NCBI GenBank assembly: GCA_012959275.1
Contig: DUDM01000002.1
Location: 1 to 46,384, forward strand
Direction of reading: 5' to 3'
DNA: 46,384 nucleotides
Origin: Candidatus Poseidoniales archaeon
GTDB taxonomy: Archaea > Thermoplasmatota > Poseidoniia > Poseidoniales > Poseidoniaceae
Part shown: piece after piece, positions 2,055 through 38,714 of the stretch
Layout of the letters: every line of letters begins with the position of its first letter
How positions within the stretch are numbered: position 1 is the first letter of the stretch
Position numbers and translations under genes: made by a program
Notes under the pieces: generated by a model
What the model saw: the letters and a program-made list of their open reading frames with translations, nothing else
Told to the model about the DNA's origin: nothing
Database searches by the model: none

Positions 2055-3278
2055 ATGGAGCACGAAGAAGTAGTGATAATTGGCGGCGCACGCACCCCCT
2101 TCTGTGAATGGGTTGGAGGAAAGAGAGGCGACGGAAAACCAGGCGGCGCTCTGAAAACTCTACGGGCTGAAGAACTCGGTGCTATTGCAATCAAAGGTGC
2201 TCTCGACAAAACTGGAACAGATTCAGCAACAGTTGACCATGTCGTCATGGGTTATGCGCTACAAACTAATTCTCAATCGATTTACGGCGCTCGTCATGCT
2301 GGATTACAAGCAGGAATTCCCGAAGAAGTACCAATGCTCACAGTTTCAAGAATCTGTGGTAGTGGCATTCAATCCATCATAAATGGTGCACAAATGATAA
2401 TGTTAGAAGAAGCAGCAACAGTGGTTGCTGGTGGTATGGAGAACCTTTCACAGGCGCCGCACGTAATACGCGGTGCTCGCGATGGTTGGGGGCTTGGCCG
2501 TGCCCCCAAGGTCGAGGATTATATGATGACAAATTTGCAAGATATGACCTGTGGTTCCTTCATGGCTCAAACTAGTGATGAGTTGTGCAAGCGAGTTGAT
2601 GTTAAGCGCCAAGAAGTCGATGAGTACGCAGCCCTTTCCCATGCTAGAACAGCAGCCTCAATCGACAATGATGTGTTTGAACAGGAAATTGTTCCAGTTA
2701 CTATCAAGTCGCGCCGTGGAGATGTAGTCCTAACTCACAAAGATGAAGATCATCTTGTACGCGATTGTAGTGCTGAATCATTATCCAAATTACCAACAGC
2801 CTTTGGTCCTGAAAGTCTTGTTACAGCAGGGAATGCCAGTGGTATCGTTGATGGTGCTGCGGCTGTAGTAATCAAATCGGCAACAAAGGCACAGGCTGAT
2901 GGAGATAAGCCATTAGCGAGAATTGTATCTTGGGGAATCGTTGGATTGGAGCCTGCAATCATGGCCTATGGGCCAGTTCCTTCTAGTCGAAAGGCATTGG
3001 AGAATGCTGGCTTAACCATAGATGATATTGACCGTTGGGAAATCAATGAAGCATTCGCTGGTCAGGCTGTTGCTTGTATCAAGGAGTTGGGAATCGATGT
3101 GGAGAAGGTCAATGTTAATGGCGGTGCTGTTGGGCTTGGTCATCCATTGGCCGCAACAGGGACTCGTCTTGTTTTGACGCTTGCACTGGAACTGCAAAGA
3201 TGTGGTGAGCGCTATGGGGTTGCTACTGCTTGCATTGGTGGTGGGCAGGGTATTGCTATTGTCATCGAAAAAATTTAG
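2055..3278 (+). CDS. Acetyl-CoA acetyltransferase (thiolase II family)
   Basis: The 407-residue protein is a full-length thiolase that condenses two acetyl-CoA, or cleaves 3-ketoacyl-CoA. All catalytic elements are present: the nucleophile Cys101 in SRICGSG, the NEAFAGQ loop near 331-337, His363 in GGAVGLGHPLAATG and the second cysteine Cys393 in ACIGGGQG. The good match to bacterial AtoB/PhaA-type enzymes, rather than the archaeal mevalonate-pathway thiolase/HMG-CoA synthase pairs, suggests fatty-acid or general acyl-CoA metabolism; this is inference. ATG 2055 has no obvious SD site. The stop (TAG 3276-3278) is interleaved with the stop of the convergent TauE gene, overlapping by 4 bases. 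Confidence 0.92.
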   Translation: MEHEEVVIIGGARTPFCEWVGGKRGDGKPGGALKTLRAEELGAIAIKGALDKTGTDSATVDHVVMGYALQTNSQSIYGARHAGLQAGIPEEVPMLTVSRICGSGIQSIINGAQMIMLEEAATVVAGGMENLSQAPHVIRGARDGWGLGRAPKVEDYMMTNLQDMTCGSFMAQTSDELCKRVDVKRQEVDEYAALSHARTAASIDNDVFEQEIVPVTIKSRRGDVVLTHKDEDHLVRDCSAESLSKLPTAFGPESLVTAGNASGIVDGAAAVVIKSATKAQADGDKPLARIVSWGIVGLEPAIMAYGPVPSSRKALENAGLTIDDIDRWEINEAFAGQAVACIKELGIDVEKVNVNGGAVGLGHPLAATGTRLVLTLALELQRCGERYGVATACIGGGQGIAIVIEKI

Positions 3279-4057
3279 AGCAACCTTGAGCCAATATCCC
3301 AAAGATACCTGCCAAGACTGGCACTAACGGCAACGAGAAATACCCACTTCACAATGTGGATTGGCAAATATTTGATAGCATTCTTCGCCCCAAAGTATGC
3401 CGAACAAAACGCCAATGCTGGTACGATAATTGCGGCTAACAACCCTGTTCTATGATAGACATCGGGCAATGTTCCATCAATCAAAATATGACTAAGCAAT
3501 GCTACAGGAACAACTGCTGCGCCGATTAGATATGAGGTTCCAGCAGCATCTCGGATGTCGAGGCCGGCCATTCTTCTATTGATGGTGACATAAACTGCAC
3601 CGCCACCAATCCCCAATAATCCAGAAGCAAGCCCTCCAAATGCACAACCGATTTTGTATTTGGTCAAGACTTCTACCCCGCCGGTGACTTTTTCGGATGG
3701 ACGAAGATTTCTTTCAATGACATAGATGAGGATTGCTGCAGCAATCACTTTGATGACAAGAATTGAAACATATTCGATAGCCAACCATGCCAAGACGGTA
3801 CCGACAATTGCAGCAGGTATGGCGGTTGTCCTACCAGCATTTGCAACTTTCTTGTTGACATGACCTTCGCCGCTATGAGCAAAACTGCTCCCCAATGCAA
3901 CCATCCAAACCATCGTTAATGATGCAATGATTGCTTCTACCAATGGCCAGCCACCGATATAATGGAGGATGGGGACAAATAGAACTCCGCCTCCAAGTCC
4001 AAGAGGGCTAAAGACGAGAGCGATGCTAAGTAATAGGGAGATTACGAGGAGTTCCAG
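3275..4057 (-). CDS. TauE/SafE family sulfite/anion exporter, CTG start
   Basis: Integral membrane exporter of the TauE/SafE (DUF81) family, which moves sulfite, sulfoacetate or related anions out of the cell. The first ATG in frame (4-base reading gives 3943) would delete the first half-repeat. Reading upstream to the preceding stop restores GLGGGVLFVPILHYIGGWP, the first TauE repeat; the second copy is GLLGIGGGAVYV at about residues 147-158. The best start is CTG at 4057-4055, with GGAGG 7 bases upstream and only 2 bases after the oxidoreductase stop. It gives 260 residues, normal for the family. Last gene of the leftward sulfur operon, so export of sulfite or sulfate made by the upstream enzymes is the natural role. 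Confidence 0.85.
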   Translation of the reverse strand: MELLVISLLLSIALVFSPLGLGGGVLFVPILHYIGGWPLVEAIIASLTMVWMVALGSSFAHSGEGHVNKKVANAGRTTAIPAAIVGTVLAWLAIEYVSILVIKVIAAAILIYVIERNLRPSEKVTGGVEVLTKYKIGCAFGGLASGLLGIGGGAVYVTINRRMAGLDIRDAAGTSYLIGAAVVPVALLSHILIDGTLPDVYHRTGLLAAIIVPALAFCSAYFGAKNAIKYLPIHIVKWVFLVAVSASLGRYLWDIGSRLL

Positions 4058-4059
4058 TA

Positions 4060-6801
4060 TTATTCCTCCTCATTACTTTGCATGTACCAGTGTTTTTTCT
4101 GGGGTGATAATGGTCTCTTCATCCACAGAGGCCGACGTTCTCCTCTTGGATGTGTCTCTTTGTCCTTGGCCCATTGGTTCCACTTCTTGTAGTAAGCGAA
4201 GGACTTCTCGGTATCGACTTCTACATCTCCGTATTCTTCACCTTCCTCAGGTTTGCAAAGTTTGACCTTTTGTAGCCAACAATGGGCGCCGCTGATTGGG
4301 TCGGGTTGTACTGCATGCGTGATGTTCTGATGAACTCCACCGTCGCGCCAAAACAATCGGCTGGTATCGGGGTCCTTCGAATCGAATGGCTGTACACCTT
4401 CGATGGTGCGCATCCTCCACTTACCATCGCCTCTATCTTCAATCGATACGGTATTGGTCATCATTCTATTTCCAGCATCTTGCTTTCTCCGCCATCGGCC
4501 AATATGGTGTGAACAACCAACGATTCCAGGTTTAATGGCTTCAGTTACCCACACTTTGTCAACGAACCAACCGATTTCAGTTTCGATTTTTATCAATCCG
4601 CCTTCAATAATACCAAGTTTTGCAGCATCCTTTGGATGCAACCAGATAGGATTCCTATTGGCAATCTCCACCAACCATTTAGCATTTGCAGAGCGTGAGT
4701 GAATATGCATAGGCAGTCTAAAATTAGGCAGTAGGCAGTATTCATTATCGGCCTGAAGCTTCTCGGGGTGGACGTGAGATTTGATACGATAATGAGGGAT
4801 AGCATGCTCGGGATAACCGAATTCAATCATTGTTGGAGAATAGAATTCCTGCTTGCCTGAAGGAGTTGGCCAGCCCTCTTCTTCGTGCTTTTTGTAAGTA
4901 GATTCCTCGATTAGGAAAGCCCCATGCTTTCTCATGTAATGCAGTTCGGAGAGGTCTTCTTTCTTTGCAGCCTCAGGAAGCCCAGGGATGCGTTCGAAGA
5001 TGTATTGGTAATATTCATCGATTGTTATGGTCTCACCTTTTCGATATGGAGACATGAAATGTTGTTTGATTCCCATTTCGCCATCTGGGTCGATTGCTAT
5101 GCTTAATTCATTCCAAAATTCATCTTCTTCCCAAACTTCTCCGGGGTTAACTTGGTGGGTAAATTCTATCTCTTCGCCACGCCGTCTAGCAAATTCTCGA
5201 AGTACTGGTTGTCGAAAGGCGACCCACTTACCAGATGATGTAGCATAGGAATTGATGTCGTGGCGCTCACTTGCATGGCCCATTGGCAAGACATAATCAG
5301 CGAAGAATGCGGTTTCATTCCAAGTAGGAGTCATGGCGATATGGCAGCCAACGGCTTCTTTGTTCTGCAACATTTCAATCCATGAAAAGCCATCGGGATA
5401 TGTCCATACCGGATTGAATACTCTGGTAAAGTAGACATCCATACTGCCGCGACCATCTTTGATTAAGTGAGGTAGTATTTGGCTCATCTCGAAATGAGCC
5501 AAGGTGTATTCAGATGGATAATGAAGTTCGTTCCATCCATCAGGGTCTGGTGGATTATCGAAGAACTCTGGTTTAAATTTAGACCAAGAATTTGGTGATG
5601 TTCCACCTACTGTTCCAACCGAGCCAGTCAACACATTGAGGAAATGTAGGCTTCTACTTACTTGCCAGCCTCCGAGGTTTCCAATAGCCGCGGCTCTCCA
5701 TACATGAGTACAAAGTTGGCTGCCAGCACTGGCTACTATTTCTCCGGCTTCGATGACTTGCTCGACTGGGATTCTGCATTCTTTGGCTGCGAATTCAGGA
5801 GTGTATTCCGCATACTCTTCTTTTAGTAATGAGATGAATGATTCAACTGATTTTTCTGCATCTGGGTGGACTGCATCTAGCCACTGCTTCCAGTTCACCT
5901 GCTCGTCGAGGAACTTTTTGTCGTAGAGTCCCTTGTCGAGAATGATTTTGGCCCAAGACAAGAATAGTGCAGTTTCGCTTCCCGGCCAAGTTGGCAGCCA
6001 ATGGTCGGCCATAGAGGCTGTATTGGAAAGTCGCGGATCGATAACAATGAGTTTTGCTCCATCCATCATTCCTTCGAGGATTCTTTGGGCATGAGGATTG
6101 AAGTAATGCCCCGTTTCAAGGTGTGATGAACAAAGTAAGATGACCTTTGCATTGGCGTGGTCTGGGCTTGGGCGGTCATGTTTTTGCCAGAGTGCATAGC
6201 CAGTTCTTGCTCCGGCGCTGCAGATGTTAGTGTGCGAGTTATGACCATCTACTCCCCATGCCTTGAGGACTCGGTTGGTATAGCCTTCATGGCCTGGTCT
6301 TCCTACGTGGTAGACTACCTTGTCGCGGGCGCCGGTCTTCAGTGATTTCCGGATTTTCGCAGCGATTTCTTCGATGACTTGAGACCATGGGATTTGCTCC
6401 CACTTGCCTTCTCCTCTTCCCCCGACTCTCTTCATTGGGTGGAGAATACGTTCTGTATCCTTGATTTGATTGATTGTTGCTGGACCCTTTGCGCAATTTC
6501 TGCCGCGGCTTCCAGGGTGGTGAGGGTTGCCTTCGAATTTTGCGACCTCGCCGCTTTCTTTGTCTACATAGGCGAGTAGACCACAGGCTGATTCGCAGTT
6601 GAAACAGGTGGTCGGTACTAATGAATAATTTTTCTCAACTTGTTTTGGCCATGCTTGGGCATCTAACTCCTTATGATTATCCCAGTCCTCGATATCGGGG
6701 TATTTTTTCAGTTCTTCTTTTGCACCATGATGGGCCTGCTTGTCGAGGTTTGGAATGATGCGCAACTTTTGTGCAATATTCTCGATGAATGTTTTTGCCA
6801 T
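4060..6801 (-). CDS. Molybdopterin oxidoreductase, SoeA-like sulfite dehydrogenase subunit
   Basis: Catalytic subunit of the DMSO-reductase family, 913 residues from ATG 6801. The SD (GAGGTG) overlaps the stop of the preceding subunit gene; GTG 6810 is an alternative start. A [4Fe-4S] motif C-x2-C-x3-C with a distant fourth Cys sits at residues 66-103. Cys194 in HTNICSAGARTGYALW is the likely molybdenum ligand. The C-terminal half has the molydopterin-dinucleotide-binding barrel (LPNFRLPMHIHSRSANAKW). There is no twin-arginine signal, so the protein should stay in the cytoplasm, as SoeA does and PsrA/PhsA/TtrA do not. Operon partners favour sulfite oxidation to sulfate. Polysulfide, thiosulfate or tetrathionate chemistry in the reductive direction cannot be excluded. 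Confidence 0.75.
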   Translation of the reverse strand: MAKTFIENIAQKLRIIPNLDKQAHHGAKEELKKYPDIEDWDNHKELDAQAWPKQVEKNYSLVPTTCFNCESACGLLAYVDKESGEVAKFEGNPHHPGSRGRNCAKGPATINQIKDTERILHPMKRVGGRGEGKWEQIPWSQVIEEIAAKIRKSLKTGARDKVVYHVGRPGHEGYTNRVLKAWGVDGHNSHTNICSAGARTGYALWQKHDRPSPDHANAKVILLCSSHLETGHYFNPHAQRILEGMMDGAKLIVIDPRLSNTASMADHWLPTWPGSETALFLSWAKIILDKGLYDKKFLDEQVNWKQWLDAVHPDAEKSVESFISLLKEEYAEYTPEFAAKECRIPVEQVIEAGEIVASAGSQLCTHVWRAAAIGNLGGWQVSRSLHFLNVLTGSVGTVGGTSPNSWSKFKPEFFDNPPDPDGWNELHYPSEYTLAHFEMSQILPHLIKDGRGSMDVYFTRVFNPVWTYPDGFSWIEMLQNKEAVGCHIAMTPTWNETAFFADYVLPMGHASERHDINSYATSSGKWVAFRQPVLREFARRRGEEIEFTHQVNPGEVWEEDEFWNELSIAIDPDGEMGIKQHFMSPYRKGETITIDEYYQYIFERIPGLPEAAKKEDLSELHYMRKHGAFLIEESTYKKHEEEGWPTPSGKQEFYSPTMIEFGYPEHAIPHYRIKSHVHPEKLQADNEYCLLPNFRLPMHIHSRSANAKWLVEIANRNPIWLHPKDAAKLGIIEGGLIKIETEIGWFVDKVWVTEAIKPGIVGCSHHIGRWRRKQDAGNRMMTNTVSIEDRGDGKWRMRTIEGVQPFDSKDPDTSRLFWRDGGVHQNITHAVQPDPISGAHCWLQKVKLCKPEEGEEYGDVEVDTEKSFAYYKKWNQWAKDKETHPRGERRPLWMKRPLSPQKKHWYMQSNEEE

Positions 6802-6811
6802 CTTCTTCACC

Positions 6812-8218
6812 TCATGCTAATGCCTGAATTTGTGGCTTTTCGATAATATGATGTCCATGCAACCAGAATGCCAAAAGGGCACAAATCGCTGCTACGACTA
6901 TTGTGGCATTGCCGATGAGAAGGAGGAGAGTTGCTGCACCAATTGCAGCCGTCTCAAACAAAAATTTCAGCGGTAGCCACTTGTCTGTTGCCCATGAACG
7001 AGCCTTTGCTTGTTGTAGTAGCCATGCCGTGTAAACTCCGGTTAGCAGAGATGCTGGAATACCAATGTAAGCCAGATAGCGGAGATATACCTCATCTAGT
7101 CCAAACAGTAGTACTGCTGCAGTAGCAGAAAGTATTCCACCATAGGCCGCCAAGATATAGGCGCCCTTCACCAACCATGAATCCCAGTTTGGTCTCAGCA
7201 TAACATAGAGGAAGCGTTCTGGGCGGTCTAGGTCTTTGAGCAGTAGTGCGCCAGTTAGGGAGAGGAATACCAAGCCGATTGTAGTGATTGGCCACCATAA
7301 GTCAGTCATGTCTAGGTAGCCCATCAGCCATGCCATCATCGCTACCATGTAAGTTCCAGAAGCAACAGCCTTTGTCCAAATATAGGCGCTAACTTCCCAG
7401 CCCCAGAGGATACCTTTCGATGGTGCATCGTAGGCTCGCTTTGCTTTAGGTGAATTATCTGCTAACTTGGCTGCGACATCTCTAATGATTGCAGCATCTC
7501 TTGGCGCGGCATCTTTTGCTTTCACTTCCATAGCCAGTTGAACTAACATCGAATGTTCATCAGTTGCGCCCATCCTTTCTTGTGCATATTTTGCAAAGTG
7601 CCCAACTCCTGCTGCTTGTTCTCCCCACATTGTTATGGCAGTTTTTTCGCTAGCAAGTGGGTTCAACATTTCTTCTGAGGTGTCGAGGTAGTAGACATTT
7701 GGAATAGTTCCGGCCTCAGGTTTCCTCACAGTCGTCTTATTCTCAGCGATTAATATAGATAGAGATGATTGTGAGTCATGCAGGTCTCCACTGACGATTG
7801 CTTCAACAGGGCAGACGATAACACAAGCAGGCTCGTAGGAGTTCTCAAGGCGGTGGGCACAGTAATTGCATTTTGCTGCTGTGCCTTTGTTTGGGTCGAT
7901 GTAAAGCGCATCATAAGGGCATGCTTGCATACATGACTTACAGCCTATACAGCGGTCATCATCGAAGTCGACGATGCCATCGCTGCGGGTGAATAATGCG
8001 GTAGTTGGACAGATCTTAGTACAAGGTGCATCCTCGCAATGATTGCAGCGGTGGACGCTGAATTCCCGGTTTGAATTTGGATATTCACCTGTTTCGATAT
8101 ACTTGACGTGAGTTCTATTCACTCCTATCGCAACATCGTGCTCCGATTTACAGGCAACAGTACATGCGTGGCAGCCGATGCATTTCCGATTATCAATTGC
8201 GAATCCATAGTTGACCAT
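6812..8218 (-). CDS. Fused iron-sulfur and NrfD-type membrane subunit (SoeB-SoeC-like)
   Basis: One 468-residue chain joins what are normally two subunits. Residues 13-136 hold sixteen cysteines in four ferredoxin-like clusters: 13/16/19/23, 58/61/66/70, 90/93/96/100 and 117/120/132/136, the DmsB/PsrB/SoeB pattern. After a linker of roughly 130 residues, residues 275-455 form a hydrophobic anchor of NrfD/DmsC/SoeC type, with the conserved DRPERFLYVMLRPNW-SWLVKG loop. It should carry electrons between the molybdenum subunit and quinones. The start at ATG 8218 is supported by GGAGG 7 bases upstream; the longer reading frame upstream adds 29 residues unlike the family and would overlap the preceding gene. 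The next gene (SoeA-like) starts 10 bases after this stop. Confidence 0.85.
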   Translation of the reverse strand: MVNYGFAIDNRKCIGCHACTVACKSEHDVAIGVNRTHVKYIETGEYPNSNREFSVHRCNHCEDAPCTKICPTTALFTRSDGIVDFDDDRCIGCKSCMQACPYDALYIDPNKGTAAKCNYCAHRLENSYEPACVIVCPVEAIVSGDLHDSQSSLSILIAENKTTVRKPEAGTIPNVYYLDTSEEMLNPLASEKTAITMWGEQAAGVGHFAKYAQERMGATDEHSMLVQLAMEVKAKDAAPRDAAIIRDVAAKLADNSPKAKRAYDAPSKGILWGWEVSAYIWTKAVASGTYMVAMMAWLMGYLDMTDLWWPITTIGLVFLSLTGALLLKDLDRPERFLYVMLRPNWDSWLVKGAYILAAYGGILSATAAVLLFGLDEVYLRYLAYIGIPASLLTGVYTAWLLQQAKARSWATDKWLPLKFLFETAAIGAATLLLLIGNATIVVAAICALLAFWLHGHHIIEKPQIQALA

Positions 8219-8231
8219 AGCCCGACCTCCA

Positions 8232-9356
8232 TTACGGCTGTTGCGAAGCCGCACATTGATTCTTTCCGATGTCCATGCTTTGGCGTTCATCAGGACAAGG
8301 GTCAAGATGACCTGTATTGACTAACCGTATTTGCGAATAAATTTCTGGTTGAGCACGCATATGAGACTGAATGAATTCGACAAAAAGTTCGACATCATTT
8401 ATTCCGTAGATATCTTCATTATTTTGAATAATTTGACCGAATGTGCTGCAGATGCTTCCATCATCACTCACTTCTTTACTCCAATCTGAAAAGTGTCCCG
8501 GTAATACTTTCAGAGATTCTGGTAGAACTGATATTCTCTGTTTCAAAGTTGCATAAAGTTGACGAGACCATTCAACCACTTTACCTCCTAAATCCGGTCG
8601 TCCAATGCTGACGATGAATACCGTATCCCCAGTTATCATCCATTCTTTATCGATGATGTAGCAGGTTGAGCCAGGAGTATGACCTGGTGAATGTATTACC
8701 TTGATTGTGACTCCATCCAAGTCGTAATTCTCGCCGTCACTAATGGCATGATAATTGAAGGAAGAATCTTTGAAATCGTCTTCATGGACAGCATATATAG
8801 CCTCAAACGCAGGTCCTCCTGAGATATAGTCAGCCTGTAAGTGAGTCTCAAAGACATGGCTTATTTCACATCCATTTTGAGAAGCAAATTGCTGGTAGAA
8901 TTCAACGTTCCGCGAAGGGTCGAAGATAAACATCTCGCCATTTTTTGCAACTGCATAAGAACAAGAAGCCTTGGCTGGGCGAATGAATTGCCATAATTGG
9001 TATGGTTGTGAATGCAATTGTTTAGCCACAAGTAAGTCTTGCCACATAGCATAGCCACCTTCAAGGAAGCCAATCGACTCATACCCATTTCCTTCAAGTA
9101 CTGCAGCTACAAAAACAGAGGAGGCTTCCTTTGCACAGATAATTTTCAAGTCGATATTTTTTGGCACTATAGCAACCGTTGTTTCTTCATCTTCGATGAA
9201 ATCAAAGTATGGGATGTTGACTACTTCAACGGCCCCAGGCATTTCGACATGAGATTCTTCAAAATCGCTTTGGTTTCGAACATCAATTATTAGGCAGTTT
9301 TTTCCGGATTCCAATGAATTGAATAATTCAAGAGCAGTGAAACTGTACATCCCCAT
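8232..9356 (-). CDS. Rhodanese-metallo-beta-lactamase fusion, probable persulfide dioxygenase
   Basis: A 374-residue fusion. Residues 1-110 form a rhodanese domain with Cys74 in the active loop CAKEASS; residues about 120-300 form a metallo-beta-lactamase domain. The usual HxHxDH motif reads H172-L-Q174-A-D176-Y177, so two metal ligands are replaced. His225 (SPGHTPG), Asp244 (TGD) and His288 (LPGH) remain. In ETHE1-type persulfide dioxygenases, iron is held by the first His of the motif, the PGH His and the GD Asp, and all three are kept here. Expected reaction: persulfide plus oxygen to sulfite, with the rhodanese delivering sulfane sulfur. A thioesterase or glyoxalase-II role is unlikely given the lost second site. 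Start ATG 9356 (or 9350). Confidence 0.72.
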   Translation of the reverse strand: MGMYSFTALELFNSLESGKNCLIIDVRNQSDFEESHVEMPGAVEVVNIPYFDFIEDEETTVAIVPKNIDLKIICAKEASSVFVAAVLEGNGYESIGFLEGGYAMWQDLLVAKQLHSQPYQLWQFIRPAKASCSYAVAKNGEMFIFDPSRNVEFYQQFASQNGCEISHVFETHLQADYISGGPAFEAIYAVHEDDFKDSSFNYHAISDGENYDLDGVTIKVIHSPGHTPGSTCYIIDKEWMITGDTVFIVSIGRPDLGGKVVEWSRQLYATLKQRISVLPESLKVLPGHFSDWSKEVSDDGSICSTFGQIIQNNEDIYGINDVELFVEFIQSHMRAQPEIYSQIRLVNTGHLDPCPDERQSMDIGKNQCAASQQP

Positions 9357-9365
9357 TTTCTCACT

Positions 9366-9884
9366 TCAAATGAATAACTGGATATCTGCATCAGCAGCAA
9401 AGTCGAGGAAGGCTGCTGCCCCACCTAAGTTGACTCCATCGATGAACTCTTCTTTCTCAAAACCAAAGACATCCATGGTCATCTGGCAGGCTATTAGGTC
9501 GACTCCTAGCAACACGCACATATCTCGTAATTCTTCGATTGTTGCGACTCCTTTTTTCTTGAAGGTCTTCTTCATCAGTGAAGTTGCCACAGTATCGAAT
9601 CCAGGCATATTGCCACTAACTGCAGCAGGGATTGGCCAGTTGATATTTTGGAAAAACTTCGGCCCGAAAGGCATCTTCATAGGCATCGCTGGATTACCAG
9701 TTGGAGTTACCTTAGCCTTGAGTTTCTTCTTCAAGAGAGGCAGTCCGTAGAATGTGAAGAATATCTTCACTTCCATATCCATGGCAGCAGCAGTAGAAGC
9801 CAAGATAAATGGGGGATAAGCCCAATCAAGTGTGCCTTGGCTGGCAATTAATGCCATCTTTTTCTTAGGCTTTTCTTCGACCAT
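9366..9884 (-). CDS. DsrE2-type sulfur carrier protein
   Basis: The 172-residue product matches the DsrE/DsrF/DrsH-like group called DsrE2. It has an N-terminal strand MALIASQGTLDWAYPPFILA, a mid-section rich in KKKLKAKV, and a C-terminal region with Cys123 and Cys133 (CVLLGVDLIACQMTMDVFG), the cysteines expected to carry persulfide. In sulfur oxidisers DsrE2 is typically encoded next to TusA and a rhodanese, and the three pass sulfane sulfur between them. The same partners flank it here: TusA directly upstream and the rhodanese-MBL fusion downstream, one base and 9 bases away. Some DsrE2 proteins are membrane-associated; I see only moderately hydrophobic helices here. Confidence 0.85.
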   Translation of the reverse strand: MVEEKPKKKMALIASQGTLDWAYPPFILASTAAAMDMEVKIFFTFYGLPLLKKKLKAKVTPTGNPAMPMKMPFGPKFFQNINWPIPAAVSGNMPGFDTVATSLMKKTFKKKGVATIEELRDMCVLLGVDLIACQMTMDVFGFEKEEFIDGVNLGGAAAFLDFAADADIQLFI

Positions 9885-10127
9885 TTAATCACCCCTTTGT
9901 AGCAGGAAAACGAAGCCTTCATCGGTGTTTTCTGTTGAGATCAAAGTATGGCCTACTCTCTCTGCCCAAGCAGGAATATCCTTGCAAGAACCAGGGTCAG
10001 AGGTAATCATTCGGAGTACCTTTCCGGCTTCCATTGTATCCATCTTTAGTTTAGTTTTGATAACAGGCATTGGGCATTGAAGGCCTTTGCAGTCAAGAGT
10101 TTCATCGTGTGCAGTCATATCTTTCAT
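9885..10127 (-). CDS. tusA: TusA/SirA-family sulfur transfer protein
   Basis: An 80-residue, one-domain protein with the family signature DCKGLQCPMPVIKTK; Cys18 of the CPMP motif is the persulfide-carrying residue. TusA accepts sulfane sulfur from a rhodanese or desulfurase and passes it to a partner; here the partners are probably DsrE2 (next gene) and the rhodanese proteins of the cluster. The ATG at 10127 overlaps the stop of the ArsR gene in an ATGA junction. An in-frame ATG at 10118 lies at better distance from the GAGGAG upstream and is an equally possible start, three residues shorter. Confidence 0.92.
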   Translation of the reverse strand: MKDMTAHDETLDCKGLQCPMPVIKTKLKMDTMEAGKVLRMITSDPGSCKDIPAWAERVGHTLISTENTDEGFVFLLQRGD

Positions 10128-10438
10128 CTCCTCATCATATCTTCTTGGGTAGTTGCTAAGCAGTCCAACATTTTGTGGACTAGGGGATTGGGTAGTGAGT
10201 AGAACATTTTGGTACCTTCTCGTCTACAACTAAGAACGCCTTTGTCTTTCATTAAGCGCAGGTGTTGAGAGGTAACTGGTTGTGATAACCCGCACCAATC
10301 GCTGATTTGATTAACACTTCTTTCTTCCTCTCTGATGTATTCTACCATCCGTATTCGGTCAGCATGACCGAGCATTTTGATGACATCTGAAACTTCTCTG
10401 ATAAAATCAGCATCGAGACGACTTCCCCTCTTCAGCAT
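10124..10438 (-). CDS. ArsR-family transcriptional regulator
   Basis: A 104-residue winged-helix protein and the first gene of the leftward sulfur operon. The recognition region reads VNQISDWCGLSQPVTSQHLRLMKDKGVL, the classic ArsR helix-turn-helix, followed by the wing SCRREGTKMFYSL. Cysteines 49, 71 and 93 are present. In BigR/SqrR-type ArsR proteins, paired cysteines sense persulfides, and given the neighbours a sulfur-sensing role is attractive, but the positions here do not let me assign the pair. ATG 10438 is preceded by GGAG with 5-base spacing. It probably represses its own operon and the divergent rhodanese gene through the palindromic, AT-rich intergenic region. Confidence 0.88.
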   Translation of the reverse strand: MLKRGSRLDADFIREVSDVIKMLGHADRIRMVEYIREEERSVNQISDWCGLSQPVTSQHLRLMKDKGVLSCRREGTKMFYSLPNPLVHKMLDCLATTQEDMMRR

Positions 10439-10544
10439 ATAATCTCCATGCGGCTGTAGATGGCACGGTATATAATATTTCTTGAATATTGAAATATATC
10501 TATTTAACGATATACTTGAATAGGAGTGCTATCTCGGCCAAGCC
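10439..10544. promoter_or_regulatory. Divergent promoter and putative ArsR operator
   Basis: This 106-base gap separates the leftward sulfur operon from the rightward rhodanese gene and is strikingly AT-rich in its middle. It has TATA-like runs near 10469-10480 (leftward) and 10508-10514 (rightward). Two inverted repeats are visible: ATATTTC/GAAATAT at 10475-10481 and 10491-10497 (9-base spacer), and TATATC/GATATA at 10495-10500 and 10509-10514. CTTGAATA also occurs twice, at 10481-10488 and 10515-10522. Repeats over TATA boxes are where a repressor could block both directions; that assignment is inference. Confidence 0.6.
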
Positions 10545-10898
10545 ATGTGGAACCTATTTGGCACAAAACAGGATATTTCAGCAAAGAAGGCAATGAGCAA
10601 GTTAGAATCTGGATGGCAACCATTCATTCTAGATGTGCGCTCAATAGCTGAAGTTAAGCAAACTGGAGTCATTCCTGGATGCAAATTATCCCATCCTCAC
10701 AGCAGTATTGGCAAGGTGCGCAAACAAATCCCAAAAAATAAGGATGTATTCCTGATGTGTAAGGGTGGTATGCGCTCTGCAAAAGCAATGGATGCACTAA
10801 TTGCAATCGGCTATGATGAAAGTCGACTATTCAACATGAAAGGTGGAGTTACCGCATGGGCACGTTGCGGCGGAGACTTCGTAAAGTACACGAATTGA
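10545..10898 (+). CDS. Single-domain rhodanese sulfurtransferase
   Basis: A 117-residue cytoplasmic rhodanese domain. The active-site loop is C72-K-G-G-M-R-S, with the preceding strand KDVFLMC and the CDC25-like C-terminal motif MKGGVTAW. The N-terminal LDVRSIAEVKQTGVIPGC is the usual first rhodanese motif. It transfers sulfane sulfur from thiosulfate, persulfide or polysulfide to an acceptor, here plausibly TusA encoded across the shared promoter. It is transcribed alone, away from the ArsR-led operon. The ATG at 10545 has only a weak purine run upstream, so the transcript may be nearly leaderless, with a TATA-like element about 30 bases before it. Confidence 0.92.
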   Translation: MWNLFGTKQDISAKKAMSKLESGWQPFILDVRSIAEVKQTGVIPGCKLSHPHSSIGKVRKQIPKNKDVFLMCKGGMRSAKAMDALIAIGYDESRLFNMKGGVTAWARCGGDFVKYTN

Positions 10899-31459: not shown

Positions 31460-34400
31460 ATGAAGCGTACAGCAGCATTTATTGTTATCCTACTGGCATT
31501 TATGTCACTGCAACCTACATTGGCTGATTATGCTGGTATCCCAGCACCCAATGATAACTATGGAAATGAAGATACCCTGAGCATTGATGGCTCTGTAATC
31601 ACCAAATTAGTGAGCGTCGGTGGAGATGTCGAATTACAAGCCCTGACCCGCGGACATAACAGTGAGACTATCGTCACCGCTGACATCATTCGACTCGATA
31701 TGGATCCGATGGATTTACTTGGAGAATTTGGAAACCCTAGTTCTACCGAGGGTGAACTTGTTGGAACTGTGGTTCTGACAAAAACCGGTGTCCACGAGGA
31801 TGATGCCAATACGGCCATCTGGGATGGAATCTTCACCCTCCCCGTCGCCGAGGTGGGTGGTGTTTATTCGGCAGAGTTCACCGCCGAACACGGCATGATG
31901 CAAGCCACGGATGATGCCACACAGTTGCAGGAAATATTCCGATATGAAATTGAAACTGTCCTGCGAGCCATCGATGATGCATGGGACACTGCAAACCCTA
32001 CGGTGGAAATTCAGGGGGAATTTGATGACCTTGAAATGCAAGTAATTTCCAATGGTGGCTTCCCTGCATTTGTGGATGCTGCAACAGACGGTAGTGGACT
32101 AGGTAGTTGGCAGGCAATGCTGGATTCAGCAGACCAATACAACCTATCTGATGGCGCAACATTCCTTGAATTGCTAATGGAGTTCTTCGATTCTGAGGAT
32201 GTCGATGCGACACTTGCAATGGTTGCAGGATTGATGACTTATCTCAATGAATTTCCACTGCCAAGATCGATGAATGATTTCGACGAAATGGCAGATTATA
32301 TGATGACCTTTGACCCTATTGAAAATTTCACTCGATTTGAAGGCACTGACCAATTTGAGGCTGCATACAACGCCATGTTGGGCAGTGATGAGTGGACTGC
32401 TATGAAGGGTGCTCTAGATGATTTGGCAAACAGTACCAAGCAGTTTGAAGCAGCACAGACGCTGATGAGGAACATCGCACTTCTCTCTGTATCTGCGCAC
32501 CCTGAGGCGATTATTGCAGGTATTGAAGCCTATCTTGAGCCGTTGATGAATGAGGATATTGACAACATGACGCCGATGCAGAAACTCATCGTCGGGTTTG
32601 CTATCCAAGACGTTGAGATGGTGGATACAGATGGCGATGAAATACCAGATGAGTTCATCTGGGAATACGAACAACTCATGGAAACTCCCGAGGGGCAAGC
32701 ATGGACAGCCAACATGGAATCCAGTGATTCGTGGGTCAATGATGTATTCGATGATTTCAATTCCCTTCCTGAGGACTGTTTTGAACATCTCATGAGTTCG
32801 TTTGATGACCCTGCATGGCAATCTGCTGGAGAAGCAGTGGGTGACTTCGGTTCATGGATGGCCAACGCCTCGGGCGGTGAGCGTGAAAGCGAATGGTATC
32901 AAGAATGGGAGGATGAGGATGGGGATGGTGAGAATGACAATGGTCCTGCCGTCATCATCTTCGAGGAATTGTACGATATTGAAACAACCGTTTACAATCC
33001 ACATATTCTCGACCTTGGCATCAATATGCGCTTCGATGGCCCTGACGATACGCACAATTCACATTACCCAGAAACATTTACGATGACAATGACTGATTCC
33101 TCAGGAATACACGTTCAATCCACTCTGTTGACACAGAGAGACAATGATCATCACACATACATCGGCCGATTGACTGCTGATTCAATCAAAGACACGGTGT
33201 GGTCATTTAGCCAACCGATGGAAAACTACGCCTATGCAGACGAAGTCTCGAACGCAAGAATCGAGGTTAAGTCGCTACGCCCAAGCATGCTTGAAGCGAT
33301 GATTTACGAGGGGGCTGATGAAACATTCATCGGTTCCGCCCTTGGTGTTCTAGTGGACCAAGATGAAACCATGTCAGTTGATTCCCCATACAGTGTGTCT
33401 GCACTGTCATACGATGCCTATGGCCCAGTGAGTGGTGCAGAGGTGGATATCGCAATCCTCCGTGTATCACCACAGAAGGCGATGGAGGCTATTGAGACAC
33501 TATCTCCAGAGGGAGGTGTTGACATTACCAGCAGTTCCACAAACATCGTTGCTCAATACACTGGTGATGACCTCGACGGGAATGTCAATGGTATCATCGC
33601 AGAGTTCAGTGGCAAGGGTGACAGAGAAGGCCACGAACATCCGCAAGCCGTACAAAATGGCGATTGGGAAGATGACTACGAAGACATCGAACGTTCAGGC
33701 CTCGGTAGCACCTGGGGCGCAAGCCACAGTGACGCCCTACCTGAAGAAGGTGGTTTGGCTGACGTGATTACAATTGGGACCACTGAATCGGGCCTAGAAT
33801 TCGAAATCATGCATCAAGTTCCACTACCCGGTACGGCAGGATGTGCGCGAACCCAAGGCAACGGTGGTGGGGGTCATGCCAGCATCGGATGGAGTTATGC
33901 AAATTTCGGATACTGGGACGATGAGAATGAAGAACAAGTGTCCTACGACAAACCTGACCTCGACACACTATCGATTAGTTGGGGAGATGGAAATTACTAC
34001 GATTACACATACGGTGAGAACGATGATTATCGCGAAGAAGGGTGGGGAGAACATGACTACCAAAATCATGGTGACTATTACATTGACATCTCGTACACGC
34101 CTGTCGCTGGATACAGTACGGTTTACCATTCAATGACGTATGTCTATTCTGATGAAGAAAAAGGATTCCGAGTCTACGAGGATGATGAGTCCTACGTGAC
34201 TGGATGGACAGATGTCGGATGGTGCGATCTAAATGACGATGAATCAGCCATTCCCAGTCCTGAGATTATTGATGCCTTCCTTACCGATGGTCCGTTCGAA
34301 GTTATGGACGAACAGATTTTCACCTCGGATGCAGATGGTGGTGTGACCATGACGGCCACACCCACCTTACCGGGCGCATACATCAGCGTGGTCCAGACCA

Positions 34401-36433
34401 AGTATTTCCGAGATGGCGAGGAACTAATCGGCATCGGTCTCAACGTAGGGGCAGCCACTGAAGCATCGATTGCGCTCTCTGGAATCACCGAACAGACCAC
34501 ATTTGCTGGAATCCCAGTGTACATTGCCACTCCATCCACAAGCGGGCTGACGACCATCGAGGTTACACCTACGGGAATGGGAGATGAGGATTACACTGCA
34601 ATGCTGATGTTGATGCCAGTGAATCTCGGAATCGCTTTCCCTGATATTGCAGAGGATGAATGGGGCGAGCCCCAAGAGTATGAACTGGAGTTCCAGCAGG
34701 GTACGGCCACACGCAGCCAAGAAGTGTACATTGATGCACCCTTGACGCTGGTGGCCAGCCTCATCATGGAAGAAGGGGCACTATGGCCCACAGCGATTCA
34801 GTTTGGTATGATTCTCAACGACGCAGGTACTTTGACCTTTGACGGCGCACTCGGACCCGGACAGACCACCAACATCGCTCTAGATGCTGATGATGGTATC
34901 GCATCGCGAATCTTGGCAGTGGCCACACCCAAGGTTGGACTTGATCCAGCCTCCATCGACCTCTCGGCATTTACTGAGATTGCCTATGGTGACTTTTTGC
35001 GCAGTGATGTACTAGGTTGGGTCAATATCGAAGAATCCCTAGAAGCGACCTGCGAGAAACTCGAGGGTTGGTCGGAAGAGGGACATGATATGACCGGAAA
35101 TCTGGAAAGCAATGTGAAAATGTCATTGAGGGATGAATCGAACGAATACGTCCACACCTCCTCTTACACACCAAATGCAGTTTTGACCGATGATGCTGGC
35201 AATACTGTTGAACCTGCCCAAGACTGGGACAAGGAATGGGACTGGGAGGAAGATTACCGAGCCACCTTCAATCTGGATTCAGGTGCATACACCTTGACGG
35301 TTGATTCAGGTAAAATCAAATTTGAAATTACAGAAGCGGGGGAATTTGATTGGAATAACGATGAGGTTTGTTCAAATGATGCCGAAATGACCGAAGAGGA
35401 AAATTTCGATTTCTTTGATGACATCTTCAGCAACCTCGATTCAGTTGCATGGGGTCTAGGTTCTAGCGCAGACCTGCATTTGTCGGATCTATCTTCGCCA
35501 CAAGATGACTACACTGTCATTGCAATAGCACAAATCGGCGAGGGTGAGGGTGCAACCGTCGTGGCTGCACTCGACACAAAGGTGGCTGAGCCAAACCCAG
35601 AGCCTCCCGTCATGATGAACATATCACTGAGTTTTGGTCCTACAAACCCATTGCCAGGTGATACCGTACAAATCACTGCAGTTGACAACCTGACAAAACA
35701 GCCCATTGAGGGCCTATCAGCTGTATTGATTCGCGATAACATAACACTCTTTGCACTAATTACAGATGAGGACGGAATAGTTTCTTTCGGTGTCACCGAG
35801 GGTACAATCATGATTCGCTTCTCAGGTGAGATGTACAATACGAAGGAGTTGACCATTGTAGTCACCGCTGACGGTATCGAAACTGGTGACGGAGATAATT
35901 TGCCAACTGATTCTGATGGAGATGGTGCGTTAGATTCCAGTGATGCATTCCCTGATGACTCTAGTGAATGGTTGGATTGTGATGGTGATGGAGTCGGTGA
36001 TAATGCTGATGATGACGATTCGGCATGTGATCCCAATGAGCCTGTGGAAAACAATACCACCCCTATCAATAATACAACGAATGATACTGGAAATGAGGAA
36101 GCAGATGAGGAAGGACGTAGTACTAGTGCAAGTTCTGGTTCAGACGTAGTAACCATTGGGATTTTTGCAGGCATTGTAACCGTACTCATGCTCGTAATTT
36201 CAGCCGCTGTTCTATTGTTAAGAGGGCGTGGTGATTCTGACGATAATTGGGTAGGAGAGCCAGCCACTATGATGGCTGCTCAAGATCATATGTTTGACGG
36301 AGGCCCCAGTGGTCCCTCGCCCACAATGCGTGGTTCGATGCAAGATGGTTTCGAAGTTCTAGAATACCCTGAGGGGAGTGGATCATGGTACTATCGCGAC
36401 AGTTCCACTGGCAAATGGTCCGAATGGGTTTGA
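31460..36433 (+). CDS. Giant secreted, C-terminally anchored surface protein
   Basis: A 1657-residue, very acidic protein with a signal peptide (residues 1-22, cleavage near LADYA). The body is a mixture of beta-rich modules and helices that I cannot assign. Acidic Ca-binding-like loops occur (DTDGDEIPDEF, DEDGDGENDN). Near the C-terminus are an Ig-like or regulatory strand module (PIEGLSAVLIRDN, TDEDGIVSFGV), TSP3-type repeats (DSDGDGALDSSDAFPDD, DCDGDGVGDNADDD) and a Thr/Asn-rich stalk. One membrane helix (about 1565-1587) and a 70-residue cytoplasmic tail ending in aromatic GSWYYRDSSTGKWSEWV complete it. A surface structure or adhesin is likely, but the ligand is unknown. The MMPL gene follows 76 bases later. 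Confidence 0.75.
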   Translation: MKRTAAFIVILLAFMSLQPTLADYAGIPAPNDNYGNEDTLSIDGSVITKLVSVGGDVELQALTRGHNSETIVTADIIRLDMDPMDLLGEFGNPSSTEGELVGTVVLTKTGVHEDDANTAIWDGIFTLPVAEVGGVYSAEFTAEHGMMQATDDATQLQEIFRYEIETVLRAIDDAWDTANPTVEIQGEFDDLEMQVISNGGFPAFVDAATDGSGLGSWQAMLDSADQYNLSDGATFLELLMEFFDSEDVDATLAMVAGLMTYLNEFPLPRSMNDFDEMADYMMTFDPIENFTRFEGTDQFEAAYNAMLGSDEWTAMKGALDDLANSTKQFEAAQTLMRNIALLSVSAHPEAIIAGIEAYLEPLMNEDIDNMTPMQKLIVGFAIQDVEMVDTDGDEIPDEFIWEYEQLMETPEGQAWTANMESSDSWVNDVFDDFNSLPEDCFEHLMSSFDDPAWQSAGEAVGDFGSWMANASGGERESEWYQEWEDEDGDGENDNGPAVIIFEELYDIETTVYNPHILDLGINMRFDGPDDTHNSHYPETFTMTMTDSSGIHVQSTLLTQRDNDHHTYIGRLTADSIKDTVWSFSQPMENYAYADEVSNARIEVKSLRPSMLEAMIYEGADETFIGSALGVLVDQDETMSVDSPYSVSALSYDAYGPVSGAEVDIAILRVSPQKAMEAIETLSPEGGVDITSSSTNIVAQYTGDDLDGNVNGIIAEFSGKGDREGHEHPQAVQNGDWEDDYEDIERSGLGSTWGASHSDALPEEGGLADVITIGTTESGLEFEIMHQVPLPGTAGCARTQGNGGGGHASIGWSYANFGYWDDENEEQVSYDKPDLDTLSISWGDGNYYDYTYGENDDYREEGWGEHDYQNHGDYYIDISYTPVAGYSTVYHSMTYVYSDEEKGFRVYEDDESYVTGWTDVGWCDLNDDESAIPSPEIIDAFLTDGPFEVMDEQIFTSDADGGVTMTATPTLPGAYISVVQTKYFRDGEELIGIGLNVGAATEASIALSGITEQTTFAGIPVYIATPSTSGLTTIEVTPTGMGDEDYTAMLMLMPVNLGIAFPDIAEDEWGEPQEYELEFQQGTATRSQEVYIDAPLTLVASLIMEEGALWPTAIQFGMILNDAGTLTFDGALGPGQTTNIALDADDGIASRILAVATPKVGLDPASIDLSAFTEIAYGDFLRSDVLGWVNIEESLEATCEKLEGWSEEGHDMTGNLESNVKMSLRDESNEYVHTSSYTPNAVLTDDAGNTVEPAQDWDKEWDWEEDYRATFNLDSGAYTLTVDSGKIKFEITEAGEFDWNNDEVCSNDAEMTEEENFDFFDDIFSNLDSVAWGLGSSADLHLSDLSSPQDDYTVIAIAQIGEGEGATVVAALDTKVAEPNPEPPVMMNISLSFGPTNPLPGDTVQITAVDNLTKQPIEGLSAVLIRDNITLFALITDEDGIVSFGVTEGTIMIRFSGEMYNTKELTIVVTADGIETGDGDNLPTDSDGDGALDSSDAFPDDSSEWLDCDGDGVGDNADDDDSACDPNEPVENNTTPINNTTNDTGNEEADEEGRSTSASSGSDVVTIGIFAGIVTVLMLVISAAVLLLRGRGDSDDNWVGEPATMMAAQDHMFDGGPSGPSPTMRGSMQDGFEVLEYPEGSGSWYYRDSSTGKWSEWV

Positions 36434-36509: not shown

Positions 36510-38714
36510 ATGCGACCTGAGCAACTCCGCCTGACTCTATTGGTTGGCATGCTATTGTCAGCAGGATTGCTGTTCTTTCATCCAGTTGAACCGAAAATGA
36601 ACACTGAAGTTATTTTCGATGATGAAGCTGTAATAAGAATCAATGATGAACGTATTGGCGGTGAAAATCACCAATTGGTTCTCAGAATTAGACACGATGA
36701 AGGGGGGTTGGTTACAAACAATCTCAGCCGTGTTCAGGATTTACTACAATTGGAGATAGAACTTCTAGATGGCTCAAATCCTCAGACCTCTTGGGAATCA
36801 TGTAGTCATAATGATTCTACTGAATGTCAATACGGTTCCTTGTATATTGAACGAGTTGTTACACCATTTTCTGCATGGGCAGATGCATTTGATTCTAAAA
36901 ATCGCTCGCTTAGAAATGCATCCCGGTGGGCGGATGTGTTGCAGCCTGAAATCGAAGACGGATGGTGCAGTAATACTGCGAATAATGCAGAGAAAGCGGC
37001 TTTTGAGGCCACCTTATTGATGTTACCTGAAGGAACGGATTTCGGCATTGCTTGCCCTGCCTTCGCGGGTGCTTTTGCAACACAGCCACCAGCAACCAAC
37101 GAAATTCTTTGGATCGTATATGTCGGTGCTGGAGGTGGAGATTGGAACGAACTGAATATTTGGGCGGACAAGGTCAGTGCGAATACCGATTACGAAATTT
37201 CAGCTACTGGCATCAATATGATGTATGGAAAAGCGAAGGCTATTGCTGAAGAAGAACTCGCTTACGTCATCATCCCATCTATATTCCTCCTTGGAGCAAT
37301 GCTGACAATTGGACTGAGAGATTGGCAAACTGCTGCCGCTACAATCAGTGGGGTCGGACTAGTCATCTGTGCAGAATTAGGGGCACTTGCGGCACTAGGG
37401 TTCGAATTTTCAGTACTAGATGGGATCGCCTTACCTATCATCATGGGTGTAGCAGTCGATGGAGCGTTCTGGTATTCGCGCTCCTCTAGGGGGAGAGAGG
37501 AGGTGCGTAGAATGCTATTCGTTGCAATGCTTACAACCGTTGCTGCAGTTTCTTTGGCTCTTTTTTCTCCCATTCGCGCACAACGCTCATTGGGTCTCGT
37601 GATGGCAATTGGTATCGTTTTAGATTGGGTTTTGACACGCTATGTGCTTGAAGATTTTTATCTAAAGCGGAGGGTATTACAGGAAGAAAAATCTAATGAA
37701 TCCCCCTTCTTTTCTTCAATTTCAACCCCTTGGGCTTGGCCTATTGCACTGCTGATTCTCGCTACTATCACAGTAATTTCACCACCTGGAGTAAATGTCA
37801 TAGAAGTTGAACAGTTTCTTCCAGATGGCGACCCAGCATTGGATGAAATGATGGATTTACAGTCAAAGTATGTTCTTGCATCGAGTACAATCGCTTGGGT
37901 TGTTGTTGATGCTGAGGGCGATAGTCAATCAGATTACGAGGAAATACTGAATCTTCAACAACAGTTGGGCCAACATCCTAGCGTGATTTCTCTTGAAGGG
38001 GGACTGATGCGTACACCAATGGTCATTGGCATTCCTGAAGGCGCTACCACTGTCGATGGATCTACTGCTGAGGGTAACTCCTCATTGTTCTTGGATCAAA
38101 GATTACAGAGAGATGGAGTGACCACCGGACTTTCAATAGCAGTTTTTATCGATGGACAAAATTCAGAGGCTGCAATTCAATTTGTAGACGATGTTGAAAA
38201 TCTACTTGCAGTGAATGGAATATCAGGTCTTGTAGGTGGCGACTTACCAACAGGTGCCAAGGCAGCCCAAACCTTCGAAGGGACGCGTATGACTCAAATC
38301 CTTTCGGCAGGAGTCGCAATCTTCCTAGTTGCCCTATTCGCCCTACGAGTCCCCATTCAAGCCGCTAGAATAGCAGTAGGTGCTGTCGCCATAGGCGCGG
38401 CAGTTGATGGAATGGCTAGCATCTTTGGGGGACGAGGGGTCAATACAGCACTTGCAGTTCTACTAGGCATGGGTTTCGCAGCGGATTACCTTTCACATGC
38501 AAGTTCGCAACACCGCCCCACAAAGTTGGATATGTCGGCACGTTGGTGGGCTGCATTGACTTCGGTTTCTGTCTTCATCTTACTGTCAATGACTACATTC
38601 CCTCCTGCTCGGAATTCTGGCCAACTCCTTACCATCAGCATTCTATTTTCAGTAATTTTAGCGACATGTCTAGCGATGATGCACGGAAATTCAGCAACGG
38701 AAAGCGAAGAATAG
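36510..38714 (+). CDS. MMPL/RND-superfamily membrane transporter
   Basis: A 734-residue protein with the duplicated RND layout of 12 helices. One N-terminal helix (7-24) is followed by a large outer domain to about residue 245, then five helices; the second half repeats one helix, a domain (about 430-585) and five helices. Conserved pieces are DGIALPIIMGVAVDGAFWYS and, in the second half, VNTALAVLLGMGFAADYLSH, the fourth-helix regions where proton-relay acids sit. MMPL-type proteins export lipids or hydrophobic compounds, and some act in protein or cell-envelope assembly. Next to a giant surface protein, a cell-envelope role is plausible. Start ATG 36510, no clear SD. Confidence 0.85.
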   Translation: MRPEQLRLTLLVGMLLSAGLLFFHPVEPKMNTEVIFDDEAVIRINDERIGGENHQLVLRIRHDEGGLVTNNLSRVQDLLQLEIELLDGSNPQTSWESCSHNDSTECQYGSLYIERVVTPFSAWADAFDSKNRSLRNASRWADVLQPEIEDGWCSNTANNAEKAAFEATLLMLPEGTDFGIACPAFAGAFATQPPATNEILWIVYVGAGGGDWNELNIWADKVSANTDYEISATGINMMYGKAKAIAEEELAYVIIPSIFLLGAMLTIGLRDWQTAAATISGVGLVICAELGALAALGFEFSVLDGIALPIIMGVAVDGAFWYSRSSRGREEVRRMLFVAMLTTVAAVSLALFSPIRAQRSLGLVMAIGIVLDWVLTRYVLEDFYLKRRVLQEEKSNESPFFSSISTPWAWPIALLILATITVISPPGVNVIEVEQFLPDGDPALDEMMDLQSKYVLASSTIAWVVVDAEGDSQSDYEEILNLQQQLGQHPSVISLEGGLMRTPMVIGIPEGATTVDGSTAEGNSSLFLDQRLQRDGVTTGLSIAVFIDGQNSEAAIQFVDDVENLLAVNGISGLVGGDLPTGAKAAQTFEGTRMTQILSAGVAIFLVALFALRVPIQAARIAVGAVAIGAAVDGMASIFGGRGVNTALAVLLGMGFAADYLSHASSQHRPTKLDMSARWWAALTSVSVFILLSMTTFPPARNSGQLLTISILFSVILATCLAMMHGNSATESEE

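Follow-up and report, generated by a model that had tools for sequence, protein, structure and literature searches.

A proposed two-module operon for the oxidation of sulfane sulfur to sulfate in a Poseidoniales archaeon

In the yrk cluster of Bacillus licheniformis, sulfide oxidation by a sulfide:quinone oxidoreductase (SQR) and a persulfide dioxygenase (PDO) has been demonstrated experimentally, with sulfane sulfur sensed by YrkD (PMC9918477). The yrk clusters of B. licheniformis and B. subtilis and the CST system of Staphylococcus aureus unite DsrE-type and TusA carriers, a rhodanese, a rhodanese-metallo-beta-lactamase (MBL) protein or PDO, and TauE in one repressor-controlled operon (PMC9918477). 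SoeABC is a cytoplasmic sulfite:quinone oxidoreductase which in Allochromatium vinosum and Aquifex aeolicus comprises a cytoplasmic molybdenum/iron-sulfur catalytic subunit, a four-cluster iron-sulfur subunit and an NrfD-like anchor (PMC8076601). Beggiatoa leptomitoformis has PDO, TusA, DsrE, rhodanese, TauE and SoeABC without rDsr or sHdr (PMC11507549). Here we analyze a locus of similar content in a Candidatus Poseidoniales archaeon (Marine Group II), at positions 3275-10898 of the 46,384-nt contig DUDM01000002.1 (C2), the whole of which we term the window and which belongs to a 1.92 Mb, 77%-complete genome. With a probability of about 0.7, we read this locus as a two-module sulfur-oxidation operon in which a PDO and a sulfite:quinone oxidoreductase would carry sulfane sulfur through sulfite to sulfate.

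The combination of PDO and SoeABC genes is already known from Beggiatoa, and the sulfane half of the locus matches the yrk/CST type; the rhodanese-MBL protein of a yrk/CST-type Sporosarcina locus (L078) is 38% identical to that of the window. The yrk/CST systems have a CsoR/CstR-type repressor and SQR and lack SoeBC-SoeA, whereas here the regulator is of ArsR type, SQR was not found and SoeBC-SoeA is present. SoeABC has a separate SoeC and an 8-helix anchor, while here B and C are fused and the anchor has about six helices in Poseidoniia. Beggiatoa differs in possessing Sox and SQR (PMC11507549). Clusters of rhodanese, TusA and DsrE2 linked to sHdr use the same carrier proteins, but no sHdr genes lie beside them here.

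All eight genes at 3275-10898 have open and intact frames. Seven read leftwards (minus strand) in an almost gapless array (3275-10438), with a divergent rhodanese gene on the plus strand (10545-10898); this is the arrangement proposed in an earlier, sequence-only reading of the DNA, and its eight family assignments are all borne out by Pfam, those of DsrE2 and ArsR also by scores above NCBIfam cut-offs. From right to left, the minus-strand genes encode an ArsR/SmtB-family repressor (10124-10438; HTH_5; above the subfamily cut-off of NF033788), a TusA sulfur carrier with a CPMP motif (9885-10127; PF01206, 1.1e-24), a DsrE2 sulfur carrier (9366-9884; DrsE_2, 6.4e-52; NF047629 score 215.3 against an equivalog cut-off of 210), a rhodanese-MBL protein, likely a PDO (8232-9356; rhodanese and Lactamase_B in a single open reading frame, ORF), a fused SoeB-SoeC-like subunit joining a four-cluster ferredoxin to an NrfD-type membrane anchor (6812-8218; Fer4_11 and NrfD in a single ORF, most likely starting at ATG 8218), a SoeA-like molybdopterin oxidoreductase of 913-916 aa (4060-6810; N-terminal Fe4S4 and C-terminal dinucleotide-binding domains) and a predicted TauE/SafE-family anion (sulfite) exporter (3275-4057; TauE, 3.6e-18), a homologue of which occupies the equivalent place in many relatives. 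The TauE frame is open upstream of 3943, where the ORF with an ATG, GTG or TTG start begins, to about 4057, just after the SoeA stop, and AGGAGG precedes a non-standard CTG or ATA start, so the protein is longer than that ORF and probably has a non-ATG start. ArsR and TusA overlap by 4 bp, TusA and DsrE2 abut and the remaining gaps are about 1-14 bp; such tight packing suggests that the leftward genes from ArsR to TauE form one transcript. The divergent single-domain rhodanese has a CKGGMRS loop (Pfam 1e-10), and between it and arsR lies an imperfect inverted repeat (10487-10522; 14-nt arms, 86% complementary, 8-nt spacer), a weak candidate for an operator.

The SoeA-like protein is encoded by 84 of 340 genomes of the class, in 16 of 25 genera, with full-length copies mostly 67-96% identical. 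It is preceded by fused SoeBC in nearly all loci examined and often followed by TauE and then, often, by a thiolase. Two genomes of another family (L063 and L065) share with the window the order BNR, rhodanese, ArsR, TusA, DsrE2, rhodanese-MBL, SoeBC, SoeA, TauE, thiolase, and there too the divergent rhodanese is in the equivalent place. DsrE2 occurs in 23 of the 340 genomes, 22 of which also have SoeA (Fisher p = 8e-14, an optimistic value as the genomes are treated as independent though related). In most of these genomes it adjoins SoeBC-SoeA; in G016, G237 and G324 about 12 kb of a shared contig separate the two, and in some fragmented assemblies it lies on a different contig. Given the shared order in L063 and L065 and this co-occurrence, the layout is not due to chance, and the genes are linked in relatives rather than scattered, in keeping with the sequence-only reading.

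The operon nevertheless comprises two modules. The SoeBC-SoeA core occurs in 84 of 340 genomes, the sulfane module in only about 23, and the latter is optional, since the core stands alone in most genomes, a congener (L033, SoeA 96% identical) retains between BNR and SoeBC, at 1750-1903, only the degraded 3' end of the rhodanese-MBL gene (VNAGRLGPFNDERRSMDIGKNQWAASQQQ), which to judge from its sequence is a deletion scar, and a second locus of the same genus (L093) keeps only rhodanese-MBL. The single self-contained cassette that had been envisaged is therefore not upheld: most Poseidoniia carriers have the core without the sulfane module, and the operon includes no source of sulfane sulfur. 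Across 12 loci, the identities of module genes correlate only weakly with that of SoeA (Spearman -0.13 to 0.31). Three side observations concern these loci. A small DUF2061 membrane protein is encoded downstream of SoeA in about 25 Poseidoniia loci as well as L083 (10696-10965), some of which lack TauE there, and may be a replacement or accessory subunit. SoeA is split or has an in-frame stop in G310, G311, G312, G314, G323 and G326, as pseudogenes or through assembly errors. In the metagenome-assembled Poseidoniia genome G144, contig C94 (locus L081) pairs SoeBC-SoeA with an MBL-rhodanese protein; its SoeA is only 50-55% identical, and the contig, bacterial in appearance, is probably contamination.

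Outside the class, named genomes hold at least 583 SoeA relatives; the 80 that were retained are from Chloroflexota, Bacteroidota, Chlorobiota, Planctomycetota, Acidobacteriota, Calditrichota, Rokubacteria and others. The Chloroflexota locus L107 has TusA, DsrE2, rhodanese-MBL, SoeBC and SoeA in the order of the window; L115 has rhodanese-MBL, TusA, DsrE2, SoeBC and SoeA; and L138 brings PDO, SoeBC, SoeA, SulP and an SQR-like gene together. These three Chloroflexota/Bacteroidota loci share fused SoeBC, SoeA and PDO with the window, but have SulP in place of TauE and a full-length 8-helix anchor. Chlorobium loci read SoeBC, SoeA, TauE, DsrE2, TusA; in Saprospiraceae, MBL-rhodanese lies upstream and SulP beside SoeA, at times with an SQR-like gene; haloarchaeal plasmids carry rhodanese-MBL, TauE, SoeBC, SoeA and MobA. 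Of 84 loci from bacteria and haloarchaea, 43 have at least one of PDO, SulP, SQR, TauE, DsrE2 and TusA less than 8 kb from SoeA, mostly less than 4.5 kb, a count made without a matched random control. These recurring neighbors point to the route from sulfane sulfur through sulfite to sulfate. As Chloroflexota and Bacteroidota carry the same set, one of them in the same order, the operon is not specific to archaea: the emphasis once placed on its occurrence in an archaeon holds for its presence here and not for its distinctiveness. It is real, conserved and functionally coherent.

The optional nature of the sulfane module lends weight to an unlikely alternative, in which sulfite disposal is the core job. 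SoeBC-SoeA-TauE would clear sulfite of any origin, such as sulfonate or cysteine breakdown, and a yrk/CST-like persulfide module gained or kept by some genomes would feed it. The excess of core genomes over those with sulfane carriers (84 of 340 against 23) fits this account, as do the module-less loci L037, L042, L066 and L067, in which SoeBC is the immediate neighbor of BNR and sulfane genes are missing, and the gene remnant in L033. Because the module nearly always accompanies SoeA, and because bacteria and haloarchaea repeatedly have PDO next to SoeBC, persulfide-derived sulfite is nonetheless a favored input. The alternative overlaps the sulfane-to-sulfate reading and does not exclude it.

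In the SoeA-like protein, an alignment shows an N-terminal [4Fe-4S] motif CX2CX3CX29C with invariant cysteines, and the invariant cysteine of HTNICSAG is the likely molybdenum ligand. None of 25 members of the clade with fused SoeBC has a twin-arginine translocation (Tat) motif, and SoeA and SoeBC of the window also lack a Tat signal, from which the catalytic subunit is predicted to be cytoplasmic. A quick maximum-likelihood tree sets the fused clade on one side of a branch (SH-aLRT 100), apart from TtrA, PhsA, PsrA, ArrA, Tat-type relatives and a candidate proteobacterial SoeA; PsrA, ArrA and FdhF are represented by partial sequences and several of the references sit on long branches, which makes relations among the references unsure. 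The candidate SoeA, from Paraburkholderia graminis (L247), lacks Tat and comes with the gene order A-B-C and a DmsC-type anchor; itself unproven, it does not branch as the sister of the fused clade. In keeping with the sequence-only reading, the protein does not group with the reductive TtrA, ArrA, PhsA or PsrA, but the label SoeA-like is one of analogy, as its clade is separate from every reference in the tree. A complex from Azoarcus KH32C was rejected as a SoeA reference, as its Tat signal and sensor-kinase neighbors resemble a Ttr-type system. A search for intermediates across 297 genomes of the phylum of L137 turned up more fused members and distant Tat-type enzymes, with no clear SoeA. 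The nearest outgroup of the tree includes Tat-type complex iron-sulfur molybdoenzymes with a VPYTCLxCNIEDGG motif (L236-L238, genomes G445, G522 and G365).

It is highly improbable that the molybdoenzyme works reductively, as a polysulfide, thiosulfate or tetrathionate reductase in a cluster for anaerobic sulfur respiration. Its best-scoring named NCBIfam models do include PhsA and DMSO-reductase types, PsrA is its top PDB relative and the bSreA/SoeA lineage, in which 5 of 1,354 sequences are archaeal, includes a reductase (PMC10100899). However, every named model falls far below its cut-off (189/694 bits for PhsA, 111/1750 for TtrA, 107/1600 for ArrA), identity to reductase references is 24-28% over part of the length, and the protein lies outside the reductive clades and lacks the Tat signal that is present, or seems to be, in the PhsA, PsrA and TtrA references. 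The nearest plasmid matches are from haloarchaea and Thermomicrobium roseum (48-53%, full length), with PhsA and TtrA at 24-27% over partial lengths. Neighboring O2-dependent PDO and SulP, and the oxygen-respiring electron transport chain described for Marine Group II (PMC6336850), also argue against reduction. On the tree, the model cut-offs and the missing Tat signal, tetrathionate, thiosulfate and arsenate reductase were each rejected as identities for the protein.

Within the tree, Poseidoniia SoeA forms one clade (support 100) and haloarchaeal SoeA another, and the two are not sisters; the best matches outside Poseidoniia are from Saprospiraceae (63% identity). This pattern would agree with separate gains of SoeA from bacteria in the two archaeal groups.

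The fused SoeBC subunit has 16 invariant cysteines forming four clusters in its ferredoxin part, and SoeB and SoeC are joined in every member where this can be read, with no separate SoeC. Setting aside L081, all 50 Poseidoniia proteins examined have 441-490 aa and 5-6 hydrophobic segments, and all 63 bacterial and haloarchaeal proteins have 497-597 aa and 7-9 segments. The alignment places the difference in a single internal deletion of about 80 residues, comprising two helices and a conserved loop. A structure model of the window protein has six membrane helices at 274-457 (mean pLDDT 47, only the membrane part being usable). In NrfD proteins the quinone site lies in helices 1-4 and part of a proposed ion path in helices 5-8 (PMC8076601); by analogy, the loss in Poseidoniia would leave quinone reduction intact and take away some of the ion path. 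This loss of about two helices is a previously unreported trait.

In the sulfane module, PDB relatives of the rhodanese-MBL protein include 3r2u (2.9e-22), 3tp9 and ETHE1 (4chl, 6.1e-9). The positions equivalent to H79, H135 and D154, which we take to be the mononuclear iron ligands of ETHE1, are kept in 34 of 34 aligned proteins (H172, H226 and D244 in the window). Those of ETHE1 H81 and H84, further histidines of the MBL metal site, are Q174 and Y177 in the window, replacements shared by 15 of 15 Poseidoniia proteins. Retention of the one set with replacement of the other fits a mononuclear site, and the rhodanese cysteine is retained wherever that domain occurs in the homologues; the protein is likely an O2-dependent PDO. 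A glyoxalase II-type hydrolase is disfavored by the loss of the two metal-site histidines in all Poseidoniia. That the sulfane half instead ends in thiosulfate in the manner of CstB, with PDO-derived sulfite combining with persulfide, TauE exporting the product and SoeBC-SoeA taking only spill-over, is extremely improbable, as the MBL-rhodanese protein 3r2u being the closest PDB relative, the presence of TauE and the thiosulfate product inferred in Beggiatoa (PMC11507549) are outweighed by a different domain order (rhodanese is N-terminal here) and by operon-like packing with SoeBC-SoeA and repeated bacterial pairing, which suggest sulfite destined for oxidation. In ArsR, Cys93 is conserved among Poseidoniia homologues and Cys49 and Cys71 are not; the protein lacks the conserved cysteine pair of BigR/SqrR types and scores below cut-off with the BigR (47.9/155 bits) and TsoR models. 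With one conserved cysteine in place of that pair, persulfide sensing is only a guess.

The data show directly which genes are present, in what order and with intact frames, as well as their families, their conservation and co-occurrence and the key residues; we infer the substrate and direction of SoeA, the PDO activity, the order of the carriers, the substrate of TauE and the regulation as follows. The first module (ArsR, TusA, DsrE2, rhodanese-MBL and the divergent rhodanese) would gather sulfane sulfur on protein cysteines, and rhodanese-MBL would convert it with O2 to sulfite. The second (fused SoeBC and SoeA), acting as a cytoplasmic molybdenum sulfite:quinone oxidoreductase, would oxidize sulfite to sulfate and pass the electrons to the quinone pool, with TauE moving excess anion out. 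ArsR would probably repress the operon until persulfide builds up. The sequence of intermediates proposed in the sequence-only reading finds support in the recurring sulfur-gene neighbors; the quinol ascribed to it would come from sulfite oxidation only, because the PDO step consumes O2. Since no SQR was found, sulfide is a less likely source than cysteine-derived or thiosulfate-derived sulfane sulfur, which we consider more likely. For a heterotroph, the likely benefit is detoxification with some extra electrons, and not lithoautotrophy.

Absences elsewhere in the genome are bounded by its 77% completeness. Dsr and Hdr-like genes were not recovered: no siroheme sulfite reductase domain (DsrAB, PF01077) was detected, positive controls being detected, and no sHdr set was recognized among the CCG-domain proteins, which sit in other contexts. 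A SoxY search gave no match, but control genomes gave none either. At C8:37252-37704 (L250:1432-2043) a 203-aa SUOX-fold protein (PF00174) is a possible second sulfite-related molybdoenzyme. Further along the window, inspection by eye shows a 1657-aa secreted, acidic surface-type protein (31460-36433) followed by an MMPL/RND-like membrane protein (36510-38714).

Several points weigh against the sulfane-to-sulfate reading. No SQR was recognized among the Pyr_redox_2 proteins of the genome. Most genomes with SoeBC-SoeA lack the sulfane module, and the two halves are hence not obligate partners; about half of the bacterial loci have no sulfur neighbor in reach, partly through contig ends. The fused clade sits on a long stem (1.16), and its SoeA name stands for analogy, not for demonstrated kinship to a proven SoeA. 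We know of no assayed enzyme from this clade. In Beggiatoa, which has both PDO and SoeABC genes, SoeABC went undetected by proteomics under the aerobic conditions tested, and thiosulfate was inferred as the fate of sulfite (PMC11507549).

Fused SoeBC-SoeA is probably an unrecognized enzyme family, for which NCBIfam has no named model. More tentatively, at somewhat less than even odds, it would be a sulfite:quinone oxidoreductase family that has no name as yet, is no more than a distant relative of characterized SoeABC and occurs across many bacterial phyla and in two archaeal classes. In this reading its Poseidoniia members, having lost two anchor helices together with some of the proposed ion path, would still pass electrons to quinone. 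The PSRLC3 system of green sulfur bacteria presumably corresponds to CT0494-0496. C. tepidum CT0494 has been assigned to FqoC (formate:quinone) in one study (PMC8076601), whereas another treats green sulfur bacterial PSRLC3 as a sulfite-oxidizing system (PMC6338057). In a survey from 2021, counts of SoeC were confined to Proteobacteria, Clostridia and Aquificae (PMC8076601). Surveys based on proteobacterial SoeABC may miss the fused family, and because it may escape them and lacks a named NCBIfam model, the extent of sulfite oxidation may be underestimated in groups such as Bacteroidota and Chloroflexota.

Marine Group II ranks with the most abundant archaea of the plankton. Its members have been described as photo- or organoheterotrophs whose sulfur metabolism goes no further than the assimilatory reduction of sulfite or sulfate (PMC6336850, PMC6864105). 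We found no description of this operon in Poseidoniales or Marine Group II in the open-licence literature, in agreement with the sequence-only reading. Marine Group II would gain a sulfur-oxidizing capacity from the sulfane-to-sulfate operon (about 7% of the class) and the probable sulfite oxidase (about 25%), and the operon would supply marker genes for field data. Its importance lies in being a testable sulfur pathway in abundant ocean plankton, and not in being an archaeal peculiarity.

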